From assembly GCA_017643925.1 (NCBI GenBank), contig JAEPML010000003.1, positions 1 to 64,000 on the forward strand: a stretch of DNA of 64,000 nt, given 5' to 3'. The notes beneath the pieces were generated by a model, which saw nothing but the letters and a program-made list of their open reading frames with translations, was not told where the DNA came from and searched no databases. Below, in pieces: positions 2 through 7,383 of the stretch; within the stretch, counting starts at the first letter, position 1, and each line of letters starts with the position of its first letter. Origin of the DNA: Roseibium sp. (lineage in GTDB: Bacteria > Pseudomonadota > Alphaproteobacteria > Rhizobiales > Stappiaceae). Position numbers and translations under genes: made by a program.

Positions 2-1030
2 GAGGTTTTTTTGGACGCAGTGCGTACAGCCGAACCCTTCGCAAGACAGGGTGCTATCGTTACATTCGGCATCACACCGACCGCGCCCAACACTGGCTAT
101 GGCTATATCAAGGTTGACGAAGGGGACGGCCTGGTACGTTCAGTCGAATCCTTCGTTGAAAAGCCCGATCTGACCAGTGCTGAGTCTTTTCTGGCGGATG
201 GCAGTTATGTTTGGAACGCCGGTATTTTCCTCTATGCTGCACACACCATGATCGAGGCCTTCAAGGTCCATCAGAAGGCGCTTTACGACGACGTTCTTGC
301 AGTGATTGAGAGCCGGCATACCGATCACGACTTCATCCGGTTCGACGAAAATCGTTTCGAGCTTCTGGTCAACATCTCTATCGACTACGCCATCATGGAA
401 AATGCCGGCAATGTGGTTTGCGTTCCGATTTCTCCCGGCTGGAACGATCTCGGCTCCTGGTCGGCCATCTGGACCGTGACCGACAAGGACGAAAACGGCA
501 ACTCGAGCACGGGGGACACCCGGTTTCTCGACAGTAGAAACTGCCTCGCCTACGCGGATCGCGGCCTGTTGTCGGTCGTCGGGCTGGAGGACGTCTTGGT
601 GATTACCACGACGGACAGCGTACTCGTTGCCCACAAAGACAAGGCCCAGAAGGTCAAGAATGTCGTGGAACAACTTAAAGTCGAGGGCCGCGACGAGGTT
701 ATTCGACATCCTCGTGCCTACAAGCCATGGGGCTATACTGAACGCATCAATGCTGGAGACCGTTTTGCGGTGCAGTCCATGATGATCAAACCTGGTAATC
801 GCCTCGGGCTGCAAACCCATCTGCACCGGGCCAAGCACTGGATTGTGGTGTCAGGAACCGTCGAGATCACTATCAATGGAGAAGTCTGCCTGCTTACGGA
901 AAATCAGTCGGCTTACGTACCACTTGGAGCTCAACACTCTCTGCACAACCCAGGCAAGCTCCCCGTCAGGATGATTGAAGTGCAATCGGGAACCTATCTG
1001 TTCGAAGACGACATCGTACCGCGTCAATAG
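2..1030 (+). CDS. manC: Mannose-1-phosphate guanylyltransferase / mannose-6-phosphate isomerase, 5' end outside window
   Basis: Bifunctional ManC/AlgA/CpsB-type enzyme that makes GDP-mannose for polysaccharides. The reading frame is open to the left window edge, so the nucleotidyltransferase N-terminus is missing. Visible are the sugar-binding stretch GYGYIK, FVEKP, the WNAGIF motif and NDLGSW, followed by the C-terminal cupin (type II isomerase) from about PWGYTERI onwards. The cupin metal motif reads QTHLHRAKHW, where the family usually has E in place of K. The protein stops at EDDIVPRQ, several residues earlier than the usual EDDIVR...GR tail, so the 3' end may be altered. An IS3 element lies about 520 bp downstream. 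It could supply GDP-mannose to the exopolysaccharide locus further right. Confidence 0.85.
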   Translation, partial: EVFLDAVRTAEPFARQGAIVTFGITPTAPNTGYGYIKVDEGDGLVRSVESFVEKPDLTSAESFLADGSYVWNAGIFLYAAHTMIEAFKVHQKALYDDVLAVIESRHTDHDFIRFDENRFELLVNISIDYAIMENAGNVVCVPISPGWNDLGSWSAIWTVTDKDENGNSSTGDTRFLDSRNCLAYADRGLLSVVGLEDVLVITTTDSVLVAHKDKAQKVKNVVEQLKVEGRDEVIRHPRAYKPWGYTERINAGDRFAVQSMMIKPGNRLGLQTHLHRAKHWIVVSGTVEITINGEVCLLTENQSAYVPLGAQHSLHNPGKLPVRMIEVQSGTYLFEDDIVPRQ

Positions 1031-1548
1031 TTCATAGTATGTACTCTTTAGCCCGATTTCTCGGTGAACCATTCTCAGAGTATTCTTTGGCTGGAAAGAA
1101 GGACAAACGATTTCGGAGTTTTGCTGGCAACCCGGCATCAGCCTGGCGACCTAAGTAAATTGGGAATTTTTGAACGGTGCCGTGTTCGACTTCTTACACT
1201 CAGCTGCCCGCAACGCATCCATCTGCAACGGCCCAGTGCCCACGAAAGTGCACAAAACGGCAAGAGTTCAACTAGTATACCACCATGGGGCCCTTGCGTT
1301 TTCCTGTTGAATTTCAAAGGGAACACCTGGGTCGACATTAATCTGTTTGTCGCCAAGAGTTCTAATAGTCATCGGACTCTTGCAGGCAAGGGTATAAGTT
1401 TCTGGCCAATCAATGCTGTCGATATCAGCAGTGCAACCCTGAAAAAAATCGAATGGAAAGTACTGTTTTAGGTTTTCAGCTTCCCATGGCAAGCCTACAG
1501 CTGCACTTCGGGCTATATCTCCAACTTGTTCGGTTTTTCGGTTGCCGA
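1031..1548. other. Gene-poor stretch between manC and the IS3 element
   Basis: No convincing complete gene. On the minus strand an open frame (stop at 1268) runs leftward from inside the IS3 left end. Its part outside the IS, 1268-1548, contains protein-like sequence such as VGLPWEAENL and NVDPGVPFEI. This could be the 3' remnant of a gene cut by the IS, but I do not recognise a family and chance openness is possible. Confidence 0.3.
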
Positions 1549-1604
1549 TGATCCTCCCCCTTTGAAGTGGTCCATCGTTATGTTTAGAAAAACGGAGGAT
1601 CAAA

Positions 1605-1883
1605 ATGGCTACGAAACGTCACAAGCCAGAAGAAATTGTCTCGAAGTTGCGGCAGGTTGAAGTCCTTGTCGGCCAAGGCATGCCGCGTATTGATGCCATT
1701 CGGCAGGTTCGTATTACGGAACAGACGTATTACCGCTGGCGAAAGCAGTATGGTGGGATGGGAACCGACCAACTGAAAGAACTCAAACGCCTTCAGAAGG
1801 AAAATGAACGTTTGCGAAAGGTAGTGTCTGACCTGACCCTGGACAAGTTGATCTTGTCGGAGGCCGCAAAGGGAAACTTCTGA
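1605..1883 (+). CDS. IS3-family transposase OrfA
   Basis: A 92-residue protein with the N-terminal helix-turn-helix of IS3 OrfA (KPEEIVSKLRQVEVL, then EQTYYRWRKQYGG) followed by a leucine-zipper-like helix (LKELKRLQKENERLRK). OrfA binds the IS ends and, after a -1 ribosomal frameshift, is normally fused to OrfB to make the active transposase. The likely slippage region is the AAAGGGAAAC tract near 1868-1877, just before the OrfA stop. The AUG is preceded by an ACGGAGG ribosome-binding site. Confidence 0.9.
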   Translation: MATKRHKPEEIVSKLRQVEVLVGQGMPRIDAIRQVRITEQTYYRWRKQYGGMGTDQLKELKRLQKENERLRKVVSDLTLDKLILSEAAKGNF

Positions 1884-2731
1884 GCCCCGCCCGTCGTCGA
1901 GCCTGCATCAATTATATTCGTCAGCATCTCGGCGTGTCAGAGCGCCGAACCTGTCGTGTTCTGGGTCAGCACCGGTCCACGCAGAGGAAACGTCCAGCAG
2001 GGCGTGCTGACGAAGAACGTCTTGTGTCGGATATGGTCGCACTCGCCCGTGAGTATGGCCGTTACGGTTACAGGCGTATCGCAGCTCTGCTCAGAGATGC
2101 GGGTTGGCATGTGAATGACAAGCGCGTTGAACGACTTTGGCGACGAGAGGGGCTGAAAGTGCCAATGAAACAACCGAAGAGAGGGAGGCTCTGGCTGAAC
2201 GACGGATCATGTGTCCGGTTGCGACCAGAGTATCCCAATCATGTCTGGAGCTATGACTTCGTGCACTGCCGAACCAATGAAGGAAAAGCATTCAGGACGC
2301 TGAACATCCTGGACGAGTATTCCCGAGAGTGCCTGGCAATTCGGGTGAAGCGAAAGCTGAATTCCACCGACGTGATTGATGTGCTGACGGATCTCTTCAT
2401 CCTTCGAGGTGTTCCAGCCTACATCAGATCTGACAACGGGCCGGAGTTCATTGCTCAGGCAGTCAGGGACTGGATCAACGCTGTGGGTGCAAAGACCGCA
2501 TACATAGAACCTGGGTCGCCATGGGAGAACGGATACTGCGAGAGCTTCAACGCCCGCCTCCGAGATGAGCTACTCAATGGAGAAATCTTCTACAGCTTGA
2601 AGGAAGCACAAATCCTGATTGAACAATGGAGGAAACATTATAATACCAAGCGCCCACACAGCGCCTTGGGCCACCGACCACCGGCACCAGAAACCATCGT
2701 CCGGATGGACCAAAGCCCAGTCATGCACTAA
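1874..2731 (+). CDS. IS3-family transposase OrfB (rve/DDE integrase)
   Basis: Catalytic half of the transposase, in the -1 frame relative to OrfA. The frame is open from 1874, giving LLSPARRRAC at the start, so expression by frameshift from OrfA is more likely than an independent start (the first plausible internal start is 1934). An HTH_21-like region (YGRYGYRRIAALLRDAGW) precedes the integrase core. The DDE residues sit in WSYDFVHCRT, RSDNGPEFIA and ENGYCESFNARLRDE. The end RPHSALGHRPPAPE is typical of the family. No internal stop is visible, so the element may be active. Confidence 0.9.
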   Translation, partial: KLLSPARRRACINYIRQHLGVSERRTCRVLGQHRSTQRKRPAGRADEERLVSDMVALAREYGRYGYRRIAALLRDAGWHVNDKRVERLWRREGLKVPMKQPKRGRLWLNDGSCVRLRPEYPNHVWSYDFVHCRTNEGKAFRTLNILDEYSRECLAIRVKRKLNSTDVIDVLTDLFILRGVPAYIRSDNGPEFIAQAVRDWINAVGAKTAYIEPGSPWENGYCESFNARLRDELLNGEIFYSLKEAQILIEQWRKHYNTKRPHSALGHRPPAPETIVRMDQSPVMH

Positions 2732-2772
2732 CAATCAAAACGGACCACTCAGGTGGGGCTGATCAGGGTGTT

Positions 2773-2961
2773 TTGTTCAATATCAGTGCGATTTTTTATT
2801 GGGTAGTTGCCGCGGTATTTCTTCTGCTGATCATTGCCGAACTAGCAGCAAACAAAAGACTAAATTTCTTGCGGGCCGGCAGTGCTGTATTTCTTTCTGC
2901 CCTTTGGCCTGCAACATCAGCCGCTGTACAGGCCCTACTCGTTAAACAGAAAAATTCTTAG
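2773..2961 (+). CDS. Small hypothetical membrane protein, possibly truncated
   Basis: A 62-residue ORF with a hydrophobic N-terminal helix (IFYWVVAAVFLLLIIAELA) and a second weakly hydrophobic stretch. It begins with TTG only 8 bp after the right end of the IS3 element and no ribosome-binding site is obvious, so the original N-terminus may have been removed by the insertion. No family recognised. Codon use is AT-richer than in the backbone genes, like the rest of this island. Confidence 0.4.
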   Translation: MFNISAIFYWVVAAVFLLLIIAELAANKRLNFLRAGSAVFLSALWPATSAAVQALLVKQKNS

Positions 2962-2996
2962 CTTTTGTTTCTATGCGCTTTGAACGGAGCGAAGAC

Positions 2997-3305
2997 ATGA
3001 GTGGCTTAAAATTTCTTGGTTCTTTTCAGTCTGCCTTTAAGGAGCTGGTGATGCGGTCAGACAAACTGCATGGCCGACACATTACCTTTGCCTACAACAA
3101 TAATAGTCGCGGTGAGAATGATTGGAGTGTCCGGGTGGTGCGTTCCTACAAGCGCAATCGACTTCACATGTTCGAAGGACAGATTGAACCGGATGGAGTT
3201 CGTTTTATTTTTCGCGCCGACAAAGTCAATTACCTGCACGACCACCAAACAGGCGCTGTGCATGAGCACAAGGACGCACAGAGGTGGCTTGCCTCCCGAA
3301 TTTAG
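2997..3305 (+). CDS. Hypothetical protein
   Basis: A 102-residue protein starting MSGLKFLGSF. This start is preferred because a GGAG lies 7 bases upstream; an upstream in-frame ATG at 2973 would add eight residues. The protein is rich in charged and aromatic residues with a patch RVVRSYKRNRLHMFEGQIEPDGVRF that suggests a small beta-rich fold. No signal peptide, no membrane helix and no family recognised. It follows the small membrane ORF by 35 bp and may be co-transcribed with it. Confidence 0.5.
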   Translation: MSGLKFLGSFQSAFKELVMRSDKLHGRHITFAYNNNSRGENDWSVRVVRSYKRNRLHMFEGQIEPDGVRFIFRADKVNYLHDHQTGAVHEHKDAQRWLASRI

Positions 3306-3407
3306 CATCGAGGCTTAACGACACCTACTTTTTCAGTTCAGCAATACCACAAGAGAAGCTTCACATGCCGAACAGTGCGAAGCCTCCAATGTATTTGTAC
3401 TTTTATC

Positions 3408-3823
3408 CTACCTCACACAACGAGCGCCCCTGACATAGTGCCGCCCGGAGAATTTCGGCCAGGCACAGGCATGACCGGCCTTGACCAGCTCTATTCCGAT
3501 ATCTAGATTGTTGACGAAACACTGAGCGACAAACCGGTCGTAGATCTTTTTCGTGAGCGACCATCGCAAGGTGTGCCGCCACCAACAACGCGACACGTCA
3601 CCAGCTGCCCCATGACAGGAGGTTTGGTAAAGTTGGTCGCCTCACGGTAACCGCGCTGACCGCGTTCAGACGTATCGACACCACACAAACGGATTTGCAC
3701 GAGAGGACGGCTCAGTTGAAACGTGTCATCGTCTATGACGCGGTTTACTGGACTGGTGATATCAGCCGCTTGAACGGGAAGCGCCACCAGCGCGGCCAAA
3801 AGAAAAGCAAATAGTCTGGACAA
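3408..3823 (-). pseudogene. Thermonuclease-family (SNase-like) protein, frameshifted
   Basis: Secreted Staphylococcal-nuclease-like protein broken by one frameshift. The first frame gives a signal peptide (MSRLFAFLLAALVALPVQA), the nuclease motifs VIDDDTFQL and IRLCGVDTSERGQRGYREA, and GGGTPCDGRSRK. The continuation lies in another frame (KIYDRFVAQCFV, then GHACAWPKFSG). The break falls at a run of five T (3547-3551 on the plus strand), where one extra base would restore a single ORF, so a recent mutation or a sequencing error are both possible. The family usually has G rather than the middle D in VIDGDTF. Confidence 0.75.
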
Positions 3824-4143
3824 TTCCCTACTCCATCAGATTGGCGTTACCGAGCACACGAGCCTGTCTCGGTGCTTCATGCCCTAGATGGAGACAACGC
3901 GTATCCGCGACTTGACGATCTTTGCCAAAATTCTTTCATTTACCGCCAAAAAGGCGCAGTTCATTTAGAACGAGCCGTTTGCTGAGAGCCAAACAAACAA
4001 ATGCGGAAGTAGAGACCAAATCAAAAGACCGGAACCCCCAACTAGGACCGCGACTGCAAAAAGAACTGATATCTTGTGCCCTTTATCAATCTCGTTCAAA
4101 GGCCAATCTCCAAAATTCACAAATCAAAACCACAACCTACAGG
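3824..4143. other. Non-coding stretch
   Basis: No supported gene. The sequence is AT-rich and has only short chance ORFs on the plus strand. It ends at the candidate small-RNA promoter described next. Confidence 0.4.
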
Positions 4144-4260
4144 TATAATATGGTTGTATTTTCTAGCAATGATCAAAATGCTAGCTAACGTAGCGTTTTC
4201 AGAGCAATTTGAGCTGCCCCGTGAGCTTTTGTACCGGAATAGCTCACGGGGCTATTTTTT
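4144..4260 (+). ncRNA. Candidate small RNA with promoter-like -10 and own terminator
   Basis: A perfect TATAAT lies at 4144-4149 and a strong intrinsic terminator ends near 4260, but no ORF connects them. A transcript starting near 4156 would be about 100 nt. It would contain a hairpin (CTAGCA 4163-4168 with TGCTAG 4179-4184) and the terminator stem. No convincing -35 box is visible at 16-18 bp. The only upstream forward gene ends at 3305, so the terminator has no obvious client. Family unknown. Confidence 0.35.
4216..4260 (+). terminator. Strong intrinsic terminator
   Basis: A 12-bp perfect stem (4216-4227 pairing with 4241-4252, GCCCCGTGAGCT/AGCTCACGGGGC), a 13-nt loop and then a run of T (TATTTTTT). 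The orientation suits a plus-strand transcript. Confidence 0.85.
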
Positions 4261-4368
4261 AGAAATTCAATCAACTTCACTTTGCATGTTAAGTTCTTGT
4301 AGATAATTAACAATCGTTAACACAAAAGCTCAGCCAATTTGATAAACAACTAAAAAAGGACTGTGCGA

Positions 4369-4506
4369 ATGTTTACTCTTGGCTTGCTTGTTGCTGCCTT
4401 CCTATTTCTGGGATTACCGGCACTTCTGTTTGTAACGGCGGTTATTGCTCGTGCAGTACTGGCCCGCGATGCATCAGCCGAGGGACGAGCAATGTTCCGT
4501 CAATGA
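4369..4506 (+). CDS. 45-residue hydrophobic small protein
   Basis: The short ORF starts MFTLGLLVAAFLFLGLPAL, has one predicted membrane helix (about residues 3-30) and ends with a hydrophilic tail EGRAMFRQ. A good ribosome-binding site (AAAGGA, 8 bases before ATG) supports translation. It lies about 110 bp after the strong terminator and is not obviously part of an operon. No family recognised; single-pass small proteins of this kind often act on membrane complexes, but no role can be assigned here. Confidence 0.45.
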   Translation: MFTLGLLVAAFLFLGLPALLFVTAVIARAVLARDASAEGRAMFRQ

Positions 4507-4524
4507 GAGCTGGATTAGCGATCT

Positions 4525-4851
4525 TTAATATCGCAAATACGTTTTCAGCAAAATTGGTTGTGAGCCGTCAATTTGATACTCCCTCACTTCACATGCGCGC
4601 GCACCACAGAAGAAGTGATTGTTAAACTCCCAAGGGCAGCTAAAACGCCCAAATTCAACGACTAGATTGTCAGCTGAATTCAGCGAAAAGGCTTGATCTG
4701 CCCCCTGAAGTTGACTGCCAGCTTTGCAGTTTTGAACGACTTCCGAAATGATATTTGACTTGATCGTTTCGATATTGGCACTGTTGTTCTGTGAATGCGC
4801 CTCAATGCTTAAGACACAAAGTGAGATTGCAATAGCAATTTGCTGTTTCAT
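4525..4851 (-). CDS. Hypothetical secreted protein
   Basis: A 108-residue protein with a plausible signal peptide (MKQQIAIAISLCVLSIEAHS). The mature part has four cysteines (EVVQNCKAG, GRFSCPWEF, HFFCGARACEV) that could form two disulfides, consistent with a periplasmic location. AGAAGG lies upstream of the ATG. No recognised family. It converges with the 45-residue ORF, their stop codons being about 20 bp apart. Confidence 0.5.
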   Translation of the reverse strand: MKQQIAIAISLCVLSIEAHSQNNSANIETIKSNIISEVVQNCKAGSQLQGADQAFSLNSADNLVVEFGRFSCPWEFNNHFFCGARACEVREYQIDGSQPILLKTYLRY

Positions 4852-5031
4852 AGCGTCAGCCTTCTAACCTAAATCGCTTCTGCGCATTGAGGCCCTTCGA
4901 CCCGTGAAGAGTTCACCGAGCGGCTGACCTGATGACAGGTGAACGTCCGATTAACTTGAGTTGCCGCTTTTCGATTTGGCACCTCAAGTGACCACTTGTT
5001 TAAATGGACACTTAAGGGCCCTCAACGAGTA

Positions 5032-5202
5032 AGCGAAGAAAGCAGCGGCAGGTCAACTGCCAAAGCCTATACACTTATCAAAACCGCCAAACTCAACGGC
5101 ATCGAGCCGAAAGCCTGGCTGACCTGGTTTCTGGAAAAAATCGCCGACCTCAAGATCAATCGCAACAACGACCTAATGCGCTCTGTTACGCTGCAGAAGT
5201 AG
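5032..5202 (+). pseudogene. IS66-family transposase, C-terminal remnant
   Basis: Only the last part of an IS66 TnpC is present: TAKAYTLIKTAKLNGIEPKA, then WLTWFLEKIADLKINRND-like sequence, which matches the IS66 C-terminal domain (usual pattern YSLIGTAKLNG...P..YL..VL..I..HP.NRI.ELLPW). Everything upstream, including the DDE core, is missing, so this is an inactive fragment. Confidence 0.75.
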
Positions 5203-5271
5203 CGTAACAGAGCGCTCCTTGATGGGCATCGTTGCTCGAACGATTTTCGAGTTTATAGCGCTCGTGATTGC

Positions 5272-5844
5272 TTGGAACTTACGGCAAAGGTCTGGCGGTA
5301 TTACACAGCACTTGATGCCGACTTGCGTCAGAGGCTGAAGGAACTAGCTTCGGAGCAACGGCGGTGCGGCTATCGTCGGCTGCACATCCCGCTGAAGCGT
5401 GAAGGCATTGAGGTCAATTGGAAGAAGGTCTACCGGATCTACCGGGAAGAGCGTCTCACGGTGCGCAAGCGTGTTGGCCGGAAACGAGCCCTGGGAACGC
5501 GAGCACCGATGGCTGTGCCACAAGCCGCCGGTCAAAGCTGGTCTCTCGACTTTGTCTCCGACGCACTGATTGATGGTTGCCGGTTTCTGATCCTGTGTGT
5601 CATTGTCGACTTCAGCCGGGAATGTCTGGCAACTGTCGTCGACAACTCGATCTCCGGAACCAGGGTCGCGCGGGCGTTAGACGGGATGGCAGAGCAACGG
5701 GGCGGCTATCCTTTGATGGTGGTCAGCGACAACTGTGCCGAACTAACGTCAAACGCCATGCTCATATGGCAACAGGACCGCGGCGTGGAATGGCACTACA
5801 TCGCTCCAGGTAAACCGATGCAGAACGGTTTTGTTGAGAGCTTC
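5272..5844 (+). pseudogene. IS3-family transposase OrfB, N-terminal piece split by an IS110-family element
   Basis: Begins inside OrfB (an OrfA partner and the left IS end are missing) and runs through RRCGYRRLHIPLKREG, the first Asp in WSLDFVSD, the second in VVSDNCAELTSN, to the catalytic Glu in NGFVESF. At 5844/5845 homology stops abruptly. The continuation NGRLRDECLKEHLF resumes at 7192 in the same frame. Removing 5845-7191 restores the canonical VESFNGRLRDE, so the IS110-type insertion split this gene cleanly. SDNCAE departs from the usual SDNGTE. Confidence 0.85.
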
Positions 5845-5850
5845 ATGTAT

Positions 5851-5862
5851 AGACGGCCCCGC
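5851..5862 (+). repeat. Subterminal inverted repeat of IS1111-type element, left copy
   Basis: AGACGGCCCCGC, 6 bp in from the element end. It is identical to the reverse complement of 7172-7183. Confidence 0.85.
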
Positions 5863-6107
5863 GGGCGCAAGTGTTTTGAACGTGATCTTCATCGGCGGGT
5901 GCGTTCATGTATTCGGCCTGTTCGTGCAGCCGATACATGGCTGCTGGCCCTGATGGTGTCCGCGGATCGAGGCCTCATCAACGGGACGCGCTTCGGCGCG
6001 CTTAAAGCTCTGCGGGCTTTCTCGATCCTCAGCTCTGCCGATTTTCCATCACGTTGTCATCGCACTTGTGCCATCTCTTCAGGTTTCTGTTAGTTCGATT
6101 TGTAAGG
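5862..6107 (-). ncRNA. Candidate bridge RNA of the IS1111-type element
   Basis: Non-coding end downstream of the transposase. Read on the minus strand it first gives AGAGCTT (6011-6005), then a 5-bp CGCGC/GCGCG hairpin with a CGAA loop (6000-5987), then GCGTCCCGTTGA (5989-5978). The first matches the left target flank GAGAGCTTC. The second is nearly complementary to the right flank TCAATGGACGC. Further on, a longer hairpin (5939-5906, CATGTAT/ATACATG arms) contains TTCATGTAT, identical to the left element junction at 5842-5850. The order target loop then donor loop is that expected for IS110 bridge RNAs. Ends of the RNA are not determined. Confidence 0.5.
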
Positions 6108-7121
6108 TTACGCGTTCCGGAACACCTCCCCGGTAGAGAGCATCGCCCAAATGGCCCGGGCGAGCTTGTTTGCGACCGCGACGGCAACAACCATAGGCCG
6201 ACGACGTTCTAACAAGGCCTCGATCCATGGACCAACTACGCGAGAACGGGCTTTTGGATATCGCACCACGGTTCGAGCCCCTAAGACCAACAAATGGTGG
6301 AGATACCGATCACCTTGTTTGGTAATGCCGCCGAGCCTGTGCTTGCCACCTGATGAGTTTTGGCGTGGTGTCAGGCCAAGCCAGGCAGCGAACTCGCGTC
6401 CTGATTTGAAGGCGGACGGATCCGGGATAGTGGCGGCAAACGCAGTCGCGGTAATCGGCCCTATCCCAGGTATGGTCGCAAGCAAGCGGCAGATCACATT
6501 GGTCTTATGAATCTCAGCCAGTCGGGCATCGATCCCATCGATCTGCTGGTTCAACGCGTCCAATTGGCCGATCAGTGCATCCAAGGCAAAGCACGCATCA
6601 TCAGGTAGATCCTGTCGTATCTCGTCCAGCTTCGCGATGAGCACATCTACCCGGTGTCGGCCCTGCGCAACAATAACACCATACTCGGCCAAGTGCGCCC
6701 GAAACGCACACGCCGCCATTGTTCGCTGCCGAACCAAAAGGCCTCGGGCTCTATGCAGCATTAAAAACGCCTGATCCTCTCGAGATTTGATCGGGACAAA
6801 GCGCATGTTGGGACGGGTTACTGCTTCACAAATTGCAGCCGCATCAGTGGCATCATTCTTCGCACCGCGCCGCACGAAGGGTTTGACATAGCCTGGAGGG
6901 ATGAGGCGCACGTCGTGGCCAATCTCTAATAACTGTCGGGCCCAGTTGTGGGCAGTAGCACAAGCCTCGATGCCGATCAGGCAGGGTGGCAAAGCCTTGA
7001 AAAACGGCAAAAGCTCTCGGCGCGTTAGCCTCTTACTCTCAATCGCTCTGCCAGATGCATCAGTAACATGGACGTGAAACACGTTCTTGGCCAGATCAAG
7101 GCCCACGGTGGATGGGATCAT
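6108..7121 (-). CDS. IS110-family transposase (IS1111 subgroup)
   Basis: A 337-residue DEDD recombinase, starting MIPSTVGLDLAK; this start is chosen because AGAGGAG lies upstream, while longer in-frame starts would lie in the interrupted IS3 gene. The N-terminal RuvC-like domain has the first Asp in VGLDLAKNVF, Glu in IGIEACATAH and the Asp pair in GAKNDATDAAAI. The C-terminal transposase_20 domain has IPGIGPITATAFAA, then SGREFAAWLGLTPRQ and the serine-containing SSGGKHRLGGITKQGD. No frameshift is visible, so the protein looks functional. It acts with the element's RNA to choose donor and target. Confidence 0.95.
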   Translation of the reverse strand: MIPSTVGLDLAKNVFHVHVTDASGRAIESKRLTRRELLPFFKALPPCLIGIEACATAHNWARQLLEIGHDVRLIPPGYVKPFVRRGAKNDATDAAAICEAVTRPNMRFVPIKSREDQAFLMLHRARGLLVRQRTMAACAFRAHLAEYGVIVAQGRHRVDVLIAKLDEIRQDLPDDACFALDALIGQLDALNQQIDGIDARLAEIHKTNVICRLLATIPGIGPITATAFAATIPDPSAFKSGREFAAWLGLTPRQNSSGGKHRLGGITKQGDRYLHHLLVLGARTVVRYPKARSRVVGPWIEALLERRRPMVVAVAVANKLARAIWAMLSTGEVFRNA

Positions 7122-7171
7122 TGGGGATGCTCCTCTTACAAACAGGACCAGCATACGGCCCCTTCTCGGGA

Positions 7172-7183
7172 GCGGGGCCGTCT
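7172..7183 (-). repeat. Subterminal inverted repeat of IS1111-type element, right copy
   Basis: GCGGGGCCGTCT on the plus strand, the exact reverse complement of 5851-5862, 8 bp from the right junction. Confidence 0.85.
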
Positions 7184-7191
7184 TCCCCATC

Positions 7192-7383
7192 AATGGACGC
7201 TTGAGAGACGAATGTCTCAAAGAACACCTGTTCCGCAGCTTTCGTCACGCCCGGGACATCATCAAAGACTGGAGGAACGATTACAATCTGAACAGACCAC
7301 ATACGAGCCTTAACCGGATCACCCCATACGAATTTGCAACCCAGTCCAACAAAGACCACACCGTGAACAGAACTAACCCATAA
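7192..7383 (+). pseudogene. IS3-family transposase OrfB, C-terminal piece
   Basis: Continuation of the OrfB interrupted at 5844: NGRLRDECLKEHLFRSFRHA, then DWRNDYNLNRPHTSLN and a normal IS3 C-terminus. It is in frame with the first piece once the IS110-type element is removed. Confidence 0.85.

Follow-up and report, generated by a model that had tools for sequence, protein, structure and literature searches.

Predicted guide RNA of an IS1111-type insertion sequence and its match to Glu-Ser-Phe|Asn-Gly codons of IS3-type transposase genes

Introduction

Guide RNAs termed seekRNAs have been shown for four insertion sequences of the IS1111 group (ISEc11, ISPa11, ISKpn4 and ISPst6) and for ISEc21 (PMC11187229). 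In a second report, covariance models yielded bridge RNA predictions for 93.0% of IS1111 elements, and six elements of the IS110 and IS1111 groups were inspected by hand (PMC11208160). The element described here lies in the window, by which is meant the whole 64,000-nucleotide stretch of DNA that was analysed, and is with a probability of roughly 95% of this same kind, namely an IS1111-group insertion sequence whose 3′ non-coding region makes a bispecific guide RNA that directs insertion.

As described in PMC11187229, the four IS1111 elements share with the present one a DEDD transposase with an SG motif, subterminal inverted repeats, a long downstream non-coding region, guides that overlap in the target and natural redirection by guide change. 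They also share its guide order, with the top-strand match 5′ of the bottom-strand match, which is the order given in the original prediction for this locus. The present element differs from them in its target, which is the IS3 transposase codons Glu-Ser-Phe|Asn-Gly, in being known from sequence alone, and in that agreement between its 3′ donor guide and the element ends is observed as well. ISEc21 likewise targets IS3-family transposase codons, but in another part of the gene, for and around the second D of DDE; it belongs to the IS110 group, with an upstream non-coding region and reversed guide order (PMC11187229). The bridge RNA of IS621 (IS110 group), as described in PMC11208160, is like this one a two-loop bispecific RNA with its target loop 5′ of its donor loop and with the core included in all pairings, whereas it is found in the left end of the element and has an 11-bp target unrelated to IS3. 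A literature search on this target, or on bridge RNAs that make use of codon wobble, with ISfinder and most subscription journals outside its reach, gave nothing nearer among the matches listed. As far as we have seen, then, the IS1111 bridge RNA is a known kind, and what is new is this element, its target and the wobble pattern described below.

The element and the gene that it interrupts

Insertion of the IS1111-type element splits an IS3-type transposase gene. The parts of the locus are:

5846–7192, minus strand: whole IS1111-type element, 1347 bp, ends set by comparing the flanks of relatives
7172–7183, minus strand: left subterminal inverted repeat AGACGGCCCCGC, a 12-bp perfect inverted repeat with 5851–5862
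5851–5862, minus strand: right subterminal inverted repeat GCGGGGCCGTCT, a 12-bp perfect repeat with 7172–7183
6111–7121, minus strand: DEDD transposase/recombinase, 337 aa (NCBIfam transpos_IS110, 348.9 bits; Pfam DEDD_Tnp_IS110 and Transposase_20)
5272–5845, plus strand: interrupted IS3-type transposase gene, 5′ part, ending ...FVESF (NCBIfam transpos_IS3)
7193–7383, plus strand: interrupted IS3-type gene, 3′ part, (N)GRLRDECL... (ORF and flank translation)

The ends are given with a 7-nt left and a 3-nt right extension; the core TG(A) is common to element and target, which leaves the exact cut ambiguous by about 3 nt. The flanks are GAGAGCTTC and AATGGACGC, and the gene is broken at the codons E-S-F|N-G. 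Counted by eye, 35 residues separate the second D of an SDN motif from this E, and because that spacing gives DD(35)E we take the Glu at the break to be the catalytic Glu of DD35E in the IS3 transposase. No target duplication is apparent from the two flanks, which, translated apart, keep a single IS3 reading frame with the core counted once. The 5′ part (query 5272–5856) scores 133.4 bits for transpos_IS3, under the whole-protein cut-off of 160. A putative, unbroken IS3-type orfB-like ORF elsewhere in the window (1934–2731) carries the same site at 2540–2553, which departs from the searched pattern by a single mismatch (guide position −4).

Membership of the IS1111 group is indicated by a DEDD catalytic domain followed by a C-terminal Transposase_20 domain with the G(L)-P----S(T)G motif (candidate D-E-D-D stretches and GL-P----SG in this protein), by subterminal inverted repeats whose 12 bp fall within the range of 7–17 bp given in PMC11208160, and by the guide order noted above. 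It is further indicated by the position of the RNA, which matches at 5898–6040 within a long non-coding region (5846–6107) downstream of tnp. The IS110 group (IS621-like) usually, with exceptions, has its RNA upstream of tnp. Likeness of the transposase to the IS621 transposase structure 8wt6 is distant only (E 9.2e-08 over residues 212–334). At the junction RE|LE, inspection by eye gives no more than a weak TTGCGC-17-CATGAT, and no junction promoter is claimed.

A predicted, conserved RNA downstream of the transposase

Relatives that align with the element comprise 14 loci at at least 79% (three in part only) and 17 at 65–70%. The window was aligned with 22 relatives, and the fold obtained for these 23 sequences consists of a 5′ hairpin together with target and donor loops; the covariance model R1 was built from this alignment. 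The predicted RNA and its helices are:

5898–6040, minus strand: predicted bridge/seekRNA, predicted extent 143 nt (R1, 176.9 bits; fold conservation)
6030–6040, minus strand: 5′ hairpin (helix 1, two-sided changes in 4/4 pairs)
5964–6028, minus strand: target loop, closed by GGAUCGAG/CUCGAUCC (helix 2, two-sided changes in 8/8 pairs)
5988–6001, minus strand: inner hairpin GCGC..GCGC between the target guides (helix 5, 99.7% of cells paired, two-sided changes in 3/4 pairs)
5915–5949, minus strand: donor-loop hairpin (two-sided changes in 2/4 pairs of helix 7 and 6/6 pairs of helix 8)

A covariance-model check of this segment had been proposed with the original prediction, and the model built here does match it, on the minus strand and at 176.9 bits against 7.9 for the next match in the window. 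This match is partly by construction, because the window is one of the 23 training sequences. In the genome that carries the element R1 has a single match at E 0.001, again at 5898–6040. Loci left out of training are more telling as to generality: R1 detects the RNA at 90 out of 93 distant loci (roughly 48–58% protein identity, taken from the then 125 loci with near relatives left out), the weakest at E 9.9e-06, and has no match in the remaining three (L004, L108 and L123). At one further locus, L082, there are two weaker R1 matches on one contig, at 1114 and 2516, and no ends were found; the RNA there is possibly broken or duplicated.

The fold is also conserved beyond the training set. Over 100 distinct rows, in an alignment that leans to the model, two-sided changes occur in 27 of 33 pairs; none of 500 shuffles reaches the observed value on any of five measures, and sliding the structure along gives no score above 0.066, the observed one being 0.419. 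In a MAFFT alignment of 52 sequences made without structure, 20 of 24 pairs show compensatory changes. Within the model, helix 4 is weak, with pairing in 60.2% of its cells. The conserved hairpin on the donor side is GGCC/GCAGCC..GGCUGC/GGCC. A different second hairpin had been put forward in the original prediction, CAUGUAU with AUACAUG, and the minimum-energy fold of the window alone (z −3.12; one of 200 shuffles folds as well) does pair the 3′ donor guide with CAUGUAU, but the complement is intact in just 6 of the 23 aligned sequences, the window included, and this helix was rejected. A helix proposed by RNAalifold (32–34/62–64), which pairs the two guides with each other, was omitted from the model because it lies in guide bases. 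No family in Rfam 15 reached its gathering threshold; five weak matches to eukaryotic and archaeal families (E 0.61–6.1) were taken as chance.

Guides at this locus

Four guide segments are predicted within the two loops:

6003–6011, minus strand: top-strand target guide AGAGCUUUA, reads Glu-Ser-Phe codons (guide/target covariation at positions 0–8; 27 sites tabulated)
5979–5985, minus strand: bottom-strand target guide CCCGUUG, reads Asn-Gly codons (covariation at −5 to 0, +1 nearly invariant; 25–27 sites)
5951–5956, minus strand: 5′ donor guide CCAUCA, complementary to left-end TGATGG (complementarity in this sequence)
5905–5912, minus strand: 3′ donor guide AUACAUGA, right end ATACA plus core TGA (identity to the right end)

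In this copy CCCGUUG has one mismatch (−5) and one G-U pair (−2), and there are two G-U pairs in total between the guides and the site. Both target segments of the original prediction, AGAGCTT (6005–6011) and GCGTCCCGTTGA (5978–5989), are present on the minus strand, with the hairpin GCGC..GCGC between them as had been described. That the RNA carries both target and donor guides is borne out in so far as the bridge RNA reading is supported, but the 5′ donor guide CCAUCA had been missed, as had two further pairs (U-G and A-T) at the 3′ end of the top-strand guide. The supposed match to the left junction, TTCATGTAT near 5906 on the plus strand, does exist as the complement of AUACAUGAA in the RNA (right end plus core), but is really the 3′ donor guide. 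Similarly, there is a guide where pairing with the right flank had been placed, but the bulged form of that pairing, GCGUCC(C)GUUGA, is rejected, since across the 62 guide sets the signal at −6 to −8 does not rise above background; the inner hairpin accounts for the GCG of GCGTCCCGTTGA, which forms part of its arm, so that a bulge is not needed.

Taken on its own, the fit at the window locus is only suggestive as a sign of guiding, for 29 of 4,000 random window sites, searched with the same freedom, pair with the RNA at least as well.

Guides follow targets across relatives

Alignment input was 100 of 126 sources (the window and 125 loci), those left out being mostly near-identical or incomplete. 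The alignment had 103 rows; in 89 of them both ends could be placed and the guides were usable, and these gave 62 distinct guide sets. Element ends were set by means of the inverted repeats and of [GA]ATG at the left end, independently of the guides.

Over the 62 guide sets, at non-core positions only, the pairings of guides with their own sites sum to 608, against a best value of 421 in 20,000 permutations. The own target is the best or tied best for 39 of the 62 (44 by a second score), and the site of some other element fits better for 23 (18 by the second score). Pairing of the top-strand guide extends over right-flank positions 0 to +8, with background from 9, and the bottom-strand guide tells own from other targets at −5 to 0, with background from −6 outward; its position +1 is G nearly everywhere and does not discriminate. 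Because each element's own core served to choose the register of the first three positions, these three are inflated for own pairs. When permutation was confined to groups with the same end sequence (five groups, 30 of the 62 rows), none of 20,000 permutations reached the observed total. This result is driven mainly by a group of 17 rows, the four small groups (3–4 rows each) not being significant alone (840 to 6,666 of 20,000 permutations reach the observed value).

These data bear on the possibility that the site is picked by protein-DNA recognition by the transposase, that the conserved RNA does something else, such as regulation, and that the flank matches are coincidence or shared descent. 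The window match alone, as good as that of few but not vanishingly few random sites, is compatible with such a view, as are the 27 sites of the group with the guides described here, which are not independent because guides and target are shared by descent. However, guides change together with targets over the 62 guide sets, also inside the 17-row group, and in a second group with sites in IS256-type genes, described below, a guide base follows a third codon base in nine of ten rows. Recognition by protein alone is on this evidence highly improbable.

The donor guides could be compared with the ends in the same rows. Among 12 distinct 5-nt combinations of 3′ donor guide and right end, nine are identical; of the remaining three, one shows a single-base difference, one has lost a terminal base (L049) and one stems from a misplaced boundary (L024). 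Combinations of the 5′ donor guide and left end, as listed, show an exact fit of CCATCA here, but GCAUUA with left-end GCATCA in the largest other group. In Phenylobacterium, five copies of one element have ccgctnn|tggcgca in common, in which the guides pair gct and tggcgca; the fit is not perfect, the cc at −7 and −6 being shared but unpaired and −1/−2 mostly mismatched. In a group with ends TGATGCT or TGATGCC..ACACA (e.g., L079, L083 and L098), several elements are inserted in palindromic repeats like ATGTCCGCTnT|TGGCGCAAAGCGGACAT.

Such a clade, with dozens of natural guide/target pairs readable straight from genomes, allows the IS1111 group to be studied for guide length, tolerance of wobble and donor pairing ahead of any assay.

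Proposed mechanism

In the mechanism that we favour, the 3′ non-coding region would make a bispecific guide RNA (a bridge RNA or long seekRNA) that binds the DEDD recombinase. The donor loop would hold the circle junction ATACA|TGATGG through AUACAUGA and CCAUCA, and strand exchange by the recombinase at the core would integrate the circle between the codons for Phe and Asn, shortly after the presumed catalytic Glu of the IS3 transposase. The anatomy of the element, the conserved fold, the covariation of guide and target, the agreement between 3′ donor guide and right end and the site specificity are read from compared sequences. Transcription, RNP assembly, the circle intermediate and strand exchange are proposed by analogy with the systems in PMC11187229 and PMC11208160. 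Counted against the mechanism are the mismatch at −5 and the two G-U pairs of this copy, the 23 or 18 of 62 guide sets that fit another site better, the misfits in Phenylobacterium, the three of 93 loci with no RNA, the single copy and the lack of an Rfam family.

This copy may be active at present. It could instead be a fossil of the same mechanism, no longer able to move. The element is present once in its own genome, a 130-contig draft; the IS3 match of the host gene begins at profile position 131 of 369, so that the host gene may itself be incomplete; and a relative, L057, 96% identical over the matching part, matches only from residue 85. The transposase frame is nevertheless open over 337 aa, and its motifs, both subterminal inverted repeats and the RNA helices are intact, which makes loss of mobility rather unlikely, if a serious prospect.

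Codons at the target site

Thirty loci with the guides of this copy were examined, and a right flank was obtained from 27 (L042, with a damaged right end, is not included). In 25 of the 27, window included, the right flank ends in the Glu-Ser-Phe (ESF) codons of an IS3-type transposase gene; the same loops are thus not found among unrelated flanks, and relatives with different loops have correspondingly different flanks, as the bridge RNA reading of the original prediction had implied. Of the two exceptions, one (L067) is IS3 out of frame and the other (L059) is not IS3. The IS3-type proteins of the window match 25 of 27 left flanks and 20 of 21 right flanks (window not counted), the pattern behind the latter figure having missed some right ends that flank translation found. 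At L064 the left flank is non-IS3 and there is no right flank.

The possibility was considered that the flanks are conserved only through the IS3 protein motif, in which case they would be shared by every element that lands in an IS3 gene, and nothing would be gained from the guides. ESF is indeed a strongly conserved motif, and it is encoded by 25 of the 27 right flanks, but the codon position of insertion is the same in all 25 copies and other guide sets follow sites outside IS3 genes. Moreover, L059 (2422–3780), which has no IS3 match in either flank, still pairs with the guides, with seven Watson-Crick and two G-U pairs of nine for one guide and 6/7 for the other, and to judge from its sequence would be a natural off-target. 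There is very little to commend an explanation by the protein motif alone.

A further matter is how the guides meet synonymous codons. Codon positions 1 and 2 are Watson-Crick paired in at least 24 of the 27 sites (25 with a left flank). Pairing at third positions, in a table in which L067, one base short, is out of register, is as follows:

Glu3 (27 sites): 17 Watson-Crick, 10 G-U
Ser3 (27 sites): 25 Watson-Crick, 2 mismatches
Phe3 (27 sites): 3 Watson-Crick, 24 G-U
Asn3 (25 sites with left flank): 14 Watson-Crick, 11 G-U
Gly3 (25 sites with left flank): 4 Watson-Crick, 21 mismatches

The guide bases at Glu3 and Asn3 simply suit the commoner codon. The U at Phe3 alone goes against it, for 24 of the 27 sites carry the Phe codon for which a guide C would pair better. 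We offer, tentatively and with somewhat more doubt than belief, that the guides resemble a degenerate primer, being adjusted to codons for the active site of a competing transposase, with codon positions 1 and 2 held by Watson-Crick pairs and the U at Phe3 taking both synonymous codons by G-U pairing. If true, this would mean that RNA-guided elements parasitise sites which their competitor cannot mutate. More generally, RNA-guided elements that address catalytic codons of other transposases make the evolution of guides against protein-constrained DNA testable. No enrichment of empty target sites was found in the genome of this element: there was no exact match, and one-mismatch sites numbered 18 against 16 for a reversed-pattern control.

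A clade with ends TGATGGC..ATACA (L091, L092, L095, L097, L102, L103, L105, L107, L118 and L119) is inserted at ...LLEQND|EW... of IS256-type transposase genes. The motif precedes the junction in eight of nine translated loci (L092 is not among these, and L119 is without a clear frame), and two flanks that were scanned score 154 and 162 bits for transpos_IS256. The third codon base that the guide follows in this clade is that of Asn (AAC/AAT) or, once, Ser (AGC), and two of these rows are near-identical. Its guide too has U at position 1, here over the third position of Asp; C is found at that guide position in 56 of 59 rows of other groups. A quick tree separates the IS3-site and IS256-site groups; independent origins of the guide U in the two are not claimed, as a single clade is compatible with the result of an AU test (p 0.39).

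A more distant relative on a Bosea vaviloviae plasmid (L137) has an RNA 85.8% identical over 132 nt, and a transposase only 56.5% identical. Its bottom-strand guide is the same and its top-strand guide differs at position 0 only; by eye its site is IS3-like, ESF|NG, with the Ser codon TCC.
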